Shown piece by piece: positions 27,869 to 34,338 of a stretch of DNA of 38,252 bases; position 1 is the first letter of the stretch, and the number at the start of each line of letters is the position of its first letter. The translations under genes were made by a program, and so were the position numbers. The notes beneath the pieces were generated by a model, which made no database searches, was not told the DNA's origin, and was given only the letters and a program-made list of their open reading frames with translations. The DNA comes from a virus, in the IMG/VR virus record IMGVR_UViG_3300033146_001478, positions 1 to 38,252 of that record; one strand, given 5' to 3'.

Positions 27869-28426
27869 TTACTTACTCCCAATAGTTTTTAATAAATCTT
27901 CCCTTACTTTAGAAATCATTAGATTTGATATTTCCTTAAATTCTGAAAGATTATTAAGTGCGTTATCTATCATATCTTTATTTAAATATGTTGTGTTCTC
28001 TTCCCTGTTTGCTCTTTCAGAAAGAAACTTTAAACTTTCATCTACACTTACACTTGATATATCAAGTGCTAAATTTTCACCAAAAACCTTATACATATTA
28101 TTAAGTTTACTAAACTTTGTTGCCGCCCTAAAACATTCATTAAGGACTTGATATAATATGTCATTCCTTAAATCTTCTGCTGTAACTTCTTTCCATTCAC
28201 CTCTGTAAAATGGTTTTTTATTCTTTCCAATAAATCCTAACTGTGGTTCATTATATTTTACTCCGTCAGCTCCACGATACATTTCTATTTCTCTATATAT
28301 AAAAATGCTCTCTGTGTATTTGCTTAATATTTCAATAATATTCCCACTTCCTTGAAATGGGTTAATATATACCCCGCTATCAAGTTTATGCTTAATTAAA
28401 AAAATTCCTTTTTCAATTTTAATCAT
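27869..28426 (-). CDS. Unknown early protein, 185 residues
   Basis: The start is ATGA-coupled to the pentapeptide gene with AAGGAGGTAAG as SD. The N-terminal half is mixed (a [17 protein letters not shown] segment), and the C-terminal half is helical with many Asn/Ser/Glu. No motif is recognised and there is no membrane span. Function unknown. Confidence 0.72.
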
Positions 28427-28971
28427 TTACTTACCTCCTTGTATGCTTTTTTTAATTTCTTTAGATACTTAATAAATTCTATATACTCTATATGGTGTAT
28501 GTTGTCTTTGTCAGGATAATCTTTTAACACATTATCCTTAAACTCTTTTAAATTTCCTGTAAAACAACCGCACCAAATCTTATCCTCACTAAACGAGTAT
28601 GTTGTCATTCTTTTTGAGCTACCTATTCTTGAAATAGAAATATAGTTATTGTCTAAATCAGCAGAGCGTAAATCAGCATAGCGTAGATTAGCAGAGCGTA
28701 AGTCAGCATAGCGTAAATCAGCATAGCGTAAATCAGCAGAGTCTAAGTTAGCAGAGCGTAAGTCAGCAAAACGTAAGTCAGCAGAGCGTAAGCCAGCATA
28801 GCGTAGATTAGCAGAGCGTAAGTCAGCATAGCGTAGATTAGCAGAGCGTAAGTCAGCAAAACGTAAGTCAGCATAGCTTAAGTCAGCTCTTTCCCCTTTG
28901 TCTTTATCTAGCAACCACTCACTATGTTTTGATATGATATCTTTTAACTCTTCTTTACTTATATCTCTCAT
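28423..28971 (-). CDS. Pentapeptide-repeat protein
   Basis: This 182-residue protein has an N-terminal helix ([18 protein letters not shown]), then 16 uninterrupted A-(D/N/G)-L-x-x pentapeptides (residues 29-108). These predict a right-handed quadrilateral beta-helix of four coils. A 74-residue C-terminal domain follows with [14 protein letters not shown] and [14 protein letters not shown], which I recognise as the usual tail of phage and bacterial proteins of this group. Some pentapeptide proteins mimic DNA and inhibit gyrase (Qnr, MfpA), but those have longer helices. A gyrase or protein-binding role is only a possibility. Confidence 0.9.
28648..28887 (-). repeat. 15-bp coding repeat array, 16 units
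   Basis: The pentapeptide part of the gene is a near-perfect tandem array of 15-base units; reading the plus strand, units such as AGCAGAGCGTAAGTC recur. The low divergence at third codon positions suggests recent unit expansion, so copy number may vary between relatives. Confidence 0.9.
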
Positions 28972-32507: not shown

Positions 32508-32799
32508 ATTCTAAAATCCTCTCTGCCTCGGCTATTATAAATAAGTCTAACTCAATAAGAGCAGATATCCCTGATAGTCTACTGTGTATCAATTTCCACT
32601 CTTTACGCAGATTGATTTTGATTAACTCGTCTGATGTTTCTTTTGCTCTAATCTCAATCTTTTCTAGTTCAACCTGTAACGGCTTAACCTGTCTTTTATC
32701 AAACCGTAAGTTTCTTTGATACCTTTTTAAATCTTTTTCCCATAGTCTAAATATTAAAATGGCAACCCCTCCTTTTCTCTCAATTCTTGACCATACCAA
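32497..32799 (-). CDS. Unknown charged helical protein after helicase
   Basis: The open frame runs to a TTG at 32799 that lacks any SD. The only strong SD (AAGGAGG) lies 7 bases before an ATT at 32760, and no ATG exists in frame, so the start is uncertain: either coupled TTG or rare ATT (87 residues). The protein is a long charged helix (LKRYQRNLRFDKRQVKPLQVELEKIEIRAKETSDELIKINL region). A helicase partner is possible by position. Confidence 0.6.
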   Translation of the reverse strand: MVWSRIERKGGVAILIFRLWEKDLKRYQRNLRFDKRQVKPLQVELEKIEIRAKETSDELIKINLRKEWKLIHSRLSGISALIELDLFIIAEAERILECER

Positions 32800-33698
32800 C
32801 TCGGAGTATCGCAGTCATCTACAATATCTATATCAATCCCACCTAATTTTGAACGCATTAGCGTGTAATTTGCCCTGTATTCGTTTTTTCGAGCGTCAAA
32901 GAGTAATCCACCTATATATTTTGTAGCACCCCCTATACGGGCTTTAGGCACTTGAAAAAATGTTGAGTGGATATTGTTTTTGTAATCGCTGTTGTCATAA
33001 TCTGGTGATATCAAGATAATTGTCTTTACTTGTTTAGGTTTATTACTACTGCCCATTAAATCGTCAATGCTTGGTATTTTAGATTTACTAAAGGTTGACT
33101 TCTTCCGTAGGTGAGACACTGCCACTATAGGTACTTCATAATCCTGATTAAATTGCCTTAGCGTTTTCATAATCTGTGTTACTTGTTCATTTTCGTTTAA
33201 CCCGTCAATCAAGTCAAAATAATCTATATGGTCAAGAACAATTAGGTCGCACTGGTTTTTGTTGTTATATTTCTCTAATACATTTTGCAATGTATGTAAA
33301 TTAAACTCTTTTCCTCGGTAGTGTATCTCGATATTATCAATCCTAGCTAGTTCTTCTCTGGCTACTTTCTCATATCTGCTGACATCTATCAGACCATACA
33401 TATAATTTCTATAGCTCATATCTATTTTATTGATTGGCTTGTCTGCATAATACTGTCTTGCAATACTGCGATATATAAACCTTTCCTCTGGCTCGTTTTC
33501 ATCTGCCTCTAATGCAAATAAGTGAATTACCTTATCAGGATTATCTATTGCATTTTTAAAAGCTAGTGCATAAGCATACTCTGACTTACCTAATCCAGTT
33601 GTCGCACCTAACAGCACAAAGTCGCTATTAGATATCCCTATCAAGAAATCATCAAGAAAAGGATTATAATACTTAAATATTGGTTTCTCGTGTTTCAT
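32754..33698 (-). CDS. DnaB-like replicative helicase, RecA-type core only
   Basis: The ATG at 33698 follows GGGGGTGG, giving 314 residues. Walker A is GATTGLGKS (31-39), Walker B is LIVLDHIDYFD (Asp156), and an AVSHLRKK segment with later QVPKARIGGATK corresponds to motifs H3/H4 of DnaB-type hexameric helicases. The N-terminal collar domain of full DnaB is missing, so it is a core-only form. It would unwind the origin loaded by the initiator encoded just upstream. Confidence 0.88.
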   Translation of the reverse strand: MKHEKPIFKYYNPFLDDFLIGISNSDFVLLGATTGLGKSEYAYALAFKNAIDNPDKVIHLFALEADENEPEERFIYRSIARQYYADKPINKIDMSYRNYMYGLIDVSRYEKVAREELARIDNIEIHYRGKEFNLHTLQNVLEKYNNKNQCDLIVLDHIDYFDLIDGLNENEQVTQIMKTLRQFNQDYEVPIVAVSHLRKKSTFSKSKIPSIDDLMGSSNKPKQVKTIILISPDYDNSDYKNNIHSTFFQVPKARIGGATKYIGGLLFDARKNEYRANYTLMRSKLGGIDIDIVDDCDTPSWYGQELREKEGLPF

Positions 33699-33699
33699 T

Positions 33700-34338
33700 C
33701 TACCACCCCCCGTAATTTTTCTTTTCTTTTTGCACATTGTTTTGATAGTTATCCTCTAATATTTTGATATAGTTTGTATCATTCTCAATAAGCCAATCAA
33801 AGGTAACTTTCCACTTTGTAACTTTACCTAATAGAAAATCACTTTCAGCTATTTTATCTAAACATAACTCAAAGTTAGTAGGGAAGTCGCTATCTCCTGA
33901 AATCCTAGTCGCAATCTTTGCTTTTCTGGTTTTACTAAGAGTCTTTATTTTAGATTGAGGTATTTTATTATTCCATTTTGTCATGTATGAGTATGTATTA
34001 TCTATTATCTTTTCTCTATTATCTATTATCGGCTTTTTTGGGTTATCTTGGGTTACCAAAAAACCCACTGGGTTATCTGGGTTATCTTGGGTTACAGGTC
34101 TACCCCCTTTTAAGCCGTTTTTTGCATTTCTCTTACATATGTTTTGATATTTCTCATTGGCTGTATCAAATTGTCGTTTCATAAAGCTAAAAACTAGGTC
34201 TGTTGCTAAAGACAAGTCTTTTGTTTCTCCTAATATATTGTAATCAAATATTGCGTCTAGTAGTTCAGCTTTTTGCTCTATGTTTAGTTTTTTGATAGTG
34301 TCGTAACTATCTTTATACAGGATAAAACCTTTTTTCAT
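33700..34338 (-). CDS. Replication initiator (DUF6291-type N-terminus)
   Basis: This 212-residue protein starts FILYKDSYDTIKKLNIEQKAELLDAIFDYN, a winged-helix-like opening I associate with DUF6291 phage replication proteins. A CKRNAKNGLKGGRP segment then leads into a Pro/Asn/Asp linker (about residues 80-105). The C-terminal part (YMTKWNNKIPQSKIKTLSKTRKAKIATRI, then WKVTFDWLIEND) resembles phage primosomal and helicase-loader regions. The linker is encoded by iteron-like repeats, as in phage initiators with an internal origin. It likely melts the origin and recruits the adjacent helicase. Confidence 0.75.
   Translation of the reverse strand: MKKGFILYKDSYDTIKKLNIEQKAELLDAIFDYNILGETKDLSLATDLVFSFMKRQFDTANEKYQNICKRNAKNGLKGGRPVTQDNPDNPVGFLVTQDNPKKPIIDNREKIIDNTYSYMTKWNNKIPQSKIKTLSKTRKAKIATRISGDSDFPTNFELCLDKIAESDFLLGKVTKWKVTFDWLIENDTNYIKILEDNYQNNVQKEKKNYGGW
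33990..34096. other. Candidate replication origin: iterons plus AT-rich repeats
   Basis: Five copies of TGGGTTA(T/C)(C/A) begin at 34039, 34049, 34069, 34078 and 34088, so spacings are 10, 20, 9 and 10 bases, close to whole helical turns. Next to them (about 33990-34032) lies AT-rich DNA with repeated CTATTATC units, a likely unwinding element. Lambda-like and many Gram-positive phages also place iterons inside the initiator gene. The function is inferred. Confidence 0.65.

Follow-up and report, generated by a model that had tools for sequence, protein, structure and literature searches.

A stretch in a phage genome (IMG/VR virus record IMGVR_UViG_3300033146_001478) is very likely a replication origin located inside the linker of the phage's own initiator gene, as in lambda gene O and SPP1 gene 38; binding of the protein and replication from this site are inferred from the sequence. 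The complete record, 38,252 bases, was analysed and is called the window. That the stretch is a replication start is very probable because an array of short DNA words has been conserved at the DNA level across many unrelated phages, in some of them without being part of a gene. The array, its grid, its AT-rich flank, the selection at the DNA level, the domain layout of the host protein and the synteny are evident from the sequence, and the positions of the corresponding features are given in Table 1.

Table 1. Features of the candidate origin and of its host and neighbouring genes in the window
Feature	Position	Strand	Remarks
Initiator gene, 212 aa	33700..34338	-	DUF6291 N-domain, iteron/AT-rich linker and C-terminal domain of replication-initiation type
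DUF6291 N-terminal domain, residues 1-81	34096..34338	-	Predicted to consist of helices only, the last one (44-76) long
28-residue module ending NGLKGGRP	34096..34179	-	Common to DUF1376 proteins (hhalign); by inference, proposed to read the iteron word
C-terminal domain, about residues 114-212	33700..33999	-	PHROG 345 'replication initiation O-like', residues 114-201; proposed helicase/loader contact
DnaB_C-type replicative helicase gene	32754..33737	-	Downstream, overlaps the end of the initiator gene; Pfam DnaB_C 1.2e-20; PHROG DnaB-like 1.4e-25
Iteron TGGGTTATC	34039..34047	+	TGGGTTAYM match
Iteron TGGGTTACC	34049..34057	+	TGGGTTAYM match
Inverted iteron	34062..34067	-	AACCCA on the + strand; starts 7 bases before the 34069 copy
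Iteron TGGGTTATC	34069..34077	+	TGGGTTAYM match
Iteron TGGGTTATC	34078..34086	+	TGGGTTAYM match
Iteron TGGGTTACA	34088..34096	+	TGGGTTAYM match
AT-rich 7-bp tandem repeat	33992..34030	.	Proposed DNA unwinding element; TRF period 7, 5.6 copies

A first-pass annotation had proposed a candidate replication origin here, with five TGGGTTAYM repeats spaced by nearly 10 bases, AT-rich repeats beside them and odd QDNP/DNP repeats in the encoded peptide, all in the linker of an initiator. These claims held. TGGGTTA is present five times on the + strand (34039-34096), each copy extending to TGGGTTAYM, with successive spacings of 10, 20, 9 and 10; a sixth, inverted copy had been overlooked. All six words lie on a grid of about 10 bp. 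The six TGGGTT/AACCCA words in 100 bp are the sole such cluster in the window, and the largest cluster obtained in 300 dinucleotide shuffles contained 3. The CTATTATC repeats resolve with TRF to a 7-bp tandem (TATTATC twice, TTTTCTC, TATTATC twice). A period of 7 bp does not fit a whole number of codons, and it stands above the synonymous null (P=0.0006). The 40-mer at 33990 belongs to the least stable 0.18% of the 40-mers of the genome. An AT-rich, easily melted tract is present beside the array in the window as well as in the averaged profile of the relatives, and the iterons lie inside the initiator gene as required of an intragenic origin, which is a known kind of origin. The linker peptide, VTQDNPDNPVGFLVTQDNP, is as described, and in it a single DNA word is translated in two different frames, giving VTQ in one and DNP in the other. 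The GC skew of the window tracks gene direction and is uninformative on the position of an origin.

The 212-aa protein matches Pfam PF19808 (DUF6291) over residues 4-81 (1.1e-25, 90 bits), a score above the gathering cut-off of 27.2 that makes it a member of the family. PHROG gives two matches, at 1.8e-15 to a DnaD-like helicase loader and at 6.4e-8 to O-like replication initiation; the stronger match takes in the linker too, and the similarity of the C-domain to initiator families is moderate only (1e-8 to 1e-15). In the AlphaFold2 model, the mean pLDDT of the N-domain is above 90 in the ten-residue blocks 11 to 70, and the last helix of this domain is predicted to enter the NGxKGGRP motif, followed by a disordered linker. 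The model of the whole protein is of moderate confidence (mean pLDDT 73, pTM 0.40), and a PDB fold search with it gave no convincing or usable match. The identification of the protein as an initiator is supported by the PHROG matches, by a relative with a lambda-O C-domain (see below) and by the adjoining helicase gene. The host gene of the array is of the replication initiator type and next to a helicase gene, as expected for an origin of this kind, but on homology only. In Vibrio, Shewanella and Aeromonas phages, the gene that follows the initiator is likewise a helicase gene or is positioned like one.

The first-pass annotation had also suggested that DNA rather than protein function shaped the stretch, a claim that would fail if relatives kept the peptide and lost the DNA repeats. 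When codons were drawn 20,000 times for the unchanged peptide according to the codon usage of the phage itself, the linker contained a mean of 0.40 TAACCCA and a maximum of 4, compared to 5 observed. Relatives were collected from viral contigs with an alignment restricted to the N-domain and ending at GGRP, adopted after single-protein searches yielded few relatives; the linkers of the 80 DUF6291 loci found were therefore not selected on. A phylum-wide search of bacterial genomes for DUF6291 gave 2/299, so that the set is viral. The loci of the N-domain scan, the named phages and the window provided 55 non-redundant linkers, in which AACCCA/TGGGTT is the top-ranked 6-mer (264 copies compared to 53.4 in synonymous shuffles, maximum 67) and AACCCA is found in 55/55. 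No enrichment was seen in the N-domains used as a control (2 observed, 3.3 expected). The words fall in frames 0, 1 and 2 in 110, 87 and 64 cases, and 36 are inverted. Between the window and its nearest relative (L096), codons for the same residue are identical in 22/22 cases in the linker compared to 27/53 in the N-domain. The array is thus conserved as DNA and not as peptide, and the outcome is the opposite of the one that would have refuted the claim: the DNA word is kept.

The arrangement of the words follows the DNA helix and not the codons. All 199 successive AACCCA spacings are within 1 bp of 10n (9, 10, 19, 20, 21, 29, 30 and so on), whereas codon multiples account for 60 of the 199 (30%), about chance level. 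The inverted TGGGTT begins 7 bases after an AACCCA in 34/36 cases, 145/145 words lie on one grid centred on the inverted copy, and the layout of the window (-26, -16, -7, +13, +23) is the commonest among relatives. The 10-bp grid is beyond the reach of synonymous shuffling, since it is carried by the peptide (the shuffles retain it, with a null of 93%), and the count of codon multiples was used instead. As the peptide encodes the grid, the argument for DNA leans on the missing codon phase and on arrays that are non-coding.

To find arrays independently of any protein, viral DNA was scanned for the geometry AACCCA-N(3-4)-AACCCA-N-TGGGTT, with the same pattern reversed as a control; at least 120 stretches were obtained compared to 2 for the reversed pattern. 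This stricter scan replaced a first pattern scan that was dropped as near chance by rough estimate. In 73 of the 80 loci examined, an N-domain of DUF6291 or DUF1376 type was present 5' of the array, at a distance of no more than 160 nt; since many were near-identical copies of one DUF1376-type gene, these 73 loci represent 40 non-redundant cases. In other loci the array is separated from the coding sequence. Two such cases are L046/L039, a single record that has the array at each end, and L048: a DUF6291-type gene without words in its own linker follows the array at about 350-420 bp. The L046 array has stops in all frames of the initiator direction, and the L048 array is non-coding and in the opposite orientation to the initiator gene. 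L093/L095 (one instance) has an initiator frame that ends just before the array, and L369 resembles this case, although its N-domain frame was not closely examined. The separated non-coding arrays of L046/L039, L048 and L093/L095 show the same grid and inverted copy. These natural separations distinguish a motif kept for the protein from an array kept for the DNA, and the frames, the orientations, the 10-bp grid and the non-coding arrays together support the claim that DNA shaped the stretch.

Two other non-coding loci were observed. One (L332:1687-1823) contains eleven AACCCA words, mostly at exact 10-bp steps and in two blocks, and no N-domain of DUF6291 or DUF1376 type was found nearby. The other (L056:6778-7000) contains two six-word arrays on the same grid in one intergenic region, and no DUF6291 gene was seen nearby.

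Proteins of the DUF1376 type (PF07120, YdaU) resemble the window protein in the last 28 residues of the N-domain and, when they carry NG..GGRP, in an AACCCA linker. The DUF1376 label was taken from the annotations given to phage hits and to E. coli YdaU, not from a run of the Pfam model on those loci. When the N-domains of the two types were compared with hhalign, only the last 28 residues, ending in NGxKGGRP, aligned (probability 96%, E 3.6e-9). DUF1376-type genes with GGRP contain 83 AACCCA compared to 24.8 expected, in 29/30 genes; those without GGRP have other repeats in the linker. The spacings in DUF1376-type genes suggest a pitch of about 11 bp. Across 102 non-redundant genes, two or more AACCCA were found in 81/83 with NG..GG[R/A]P compared to 0/19 of the others (Fisher p 1e-18, relatedness ignored), and where a different motif follows the N-domain of a relative, the repeats are different too. 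In the absence of binding data, this covariation of motif class and word provides indirect support for binding of the repeats by the initiator. The E. coli Rac YdaU had been expected to carry the same AACCCA word; this expectation failed, as GTTCAA repeats are found instead. They occupy the same place after the N-domain in the ydaU linker of E. coli K-12 (L089:5460-5600), a candidate part of oriJ, the active origin of the Rac prophage (PMC3945230). The iterons of many DUF1376-type linkers (L178-L257), belonging to several motif classes, are followed by repeats of another family, ATAACCAATAACCA, which could possibly serve as a melting or second binding element.

The organisation is close to that of the lambda origin, which gene O carries in its middle part. 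There are 4 iterons in lambda and 6 in Stx phages (PMC7466680), and, as in the window, iterons and an AT-rich tract lie mid-gene between the DNA-binding N-part and the C-part of the initiator (PMC7466680). The two systems differ in that the window N-domain is unrelated to that of lambda O and in that the window words are of 6-9 bp on a 10-bp grid with one inverted copy. The iterons of lambda are longer. In Vibrio phage 199E37-1, a DUF6291 N-domain and the array are followed by a C-domain 49% identical to lambda O over 94 aa; the alignment is confined to the C-domain, with no match between the N-part and lambda O, and no lambda P similarity was found in the gene after this initiator. We therefore consider the window protein as lambda-O-like in its working and not as a member of the lambda O family, since its N-domain is DUF6291 and the relative aligns in the C-domain only. 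In SPP1, oriL is located in gene 38 (PMC6316719), which encodes the replisome organizer gp38; SPP1 has a separate loader, gp39, and a second origin, oriR, whereas in the window a DnaB_C helicase gene is directly downstream and there is a single array of the TGGGTT/AACCCA word. The lambda-O C-domain is matched equally well by three PLSDB plasmid records of 48,499-48,502 bp (NZ_CP082339, NZ_CP104294 and NZ_CP068597, assigned to Salmonella, Stenotrophomonas and Paenibacillus), and the Salmonella record shows the order cro-cII-O-P-ren; all three have the length of lambda and are likely lambda control DNA.

Among alternative explanations, the one that deserves most attention is an operator, in which the protein would bind the array to control transcription of its own operon without any origin function. 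A conserved binding array indicates binding and not replication, many initiators also autoregulate, and the arrays of L046 and L048 are found upstream of the gene. However, in nearly all relatives it lies mid-gene, 240-300 nt into the coding sequence, and it is joined to a destabilised AT-rich tract; in a G+C-richer 17.3-kb circular record from Spirosoma (Bacteroidota) that has the same array, this flank is kept at 72% A+T in a gene of 47% A+T. The C-domains, moreover, are of the helicase-loader or initiator type. We consider an operator unlikely, although it is not excluded. Selection of the peptide repeats (TQDNP/DNP, D/S/N-rich) as a flexible linker, with DNA repeats resulting from slippage or codon bias, would fit the likeness of linker peptides in the family (TQNNPNNPVGY...KKADND) and the D/S dipeptide runs that hint at slippage. 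It is already contradicted and very improbable: the synonymous nulls are rejected, the word occurs in three frames and inverted, the spacings track 10 bp and not codons, and the array is retained despite stop codons in the initiator direction.

Conservation of the linker DNA as a recombination boundary for swapping N- and C-domain modules could account for the linker DNA that the window and L096 have in common next to C-domains without evident similarity, and for the wide variation of C-domains among relatives. Homologous exchange, however, needs no words on a helical grid, no inverted copy at a fixed offset and no class-specific words, which leaves this explanation with very little likelihood; module swapping at the linker may possibly be a by-product of the position of the origin. 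An mRNA element, either a structure or a regulator site formed by the repeats, is equally hard to sustain: one stem between inverted copies is possible, but the fold energy is ordinary (z -0.62) with no RNA structure signal, and the array of L048 is non-coding and flipped relative to the initiator gene.

Under the preferred reading, that of an origin, the DUF6291 domain would bind the TGGGTT/AACCCA words through its C-terminal helix and the NGxKGGRP motif. Copies spaced by about 10 bp on one helix face, with one inverted at a fixed offset, would allow several initiators to assemble side by side; this assembly would melt the adjoining AT-rich 7-mer tract, and the C-domain would recruit the helicase encoded by the next gene. 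Binding, assembly, melting and helicase loading are all inferred. Enrichment and grid indicate a conserved array of the protein-binding type and not origin activity as such, and there are no binding, footprint or replication data; with these reservations, the candidate origin of the first-pass annotation is supported by several sequence-based arguments that are independent of one another.

In the literature searched, from which most subscription journals are absent, we found no description of this initiator family, of the grid rule or of the motif-word link, no mention of DUF6291 and no report linking DUF1376 with a replication origin. The results suggest a likely function, that of an origin-binding initiator, for DUF6291 and part of DUF1376, both without a functional name. 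A sequence rule that combines a 10-bp grid, an inverted copy at +7 and an AT-rich flank locates candidate origins in many uncultured phages, and the tie between a short protein motif and a DNA word allows the specificity of initiators for origins to be tested directly, also in the Rac prophage of E. coli K-12.

A bolder reading, which we regard as no more likely to be right than wrong, is a two-part recognition code in which the iteron word would be read by a portable 28-residue helix-plus-motif, carried by two or more N-domain families, and the pitch would be set by the N-domain type, initiator and origin moving as one cassette. The code would assign NG..GG[R/A]P to AACCCA, AG..GGKQ and AG..GGRP to AGCAAA, INIAKRW to ATACCA and AGxASxxxR to GTTCAA, with the E. 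coli Rac YdaU included in the last class. The pitch would be about 10 bp for DUF6291 and about 11 bp for DUF1376, and the cassette would travel between phages of different bacterial phyla. The words of the minor classes are leads only, since they were picked once the data had been seen, with between one and four genes behind each.

Elsewhere in the window, a gene for a pentapeptide-repeat protein (28423-28971, - strand; Pfam 1.8e-27) contains 15-bp tandem DNA repeats at 28654-28887.
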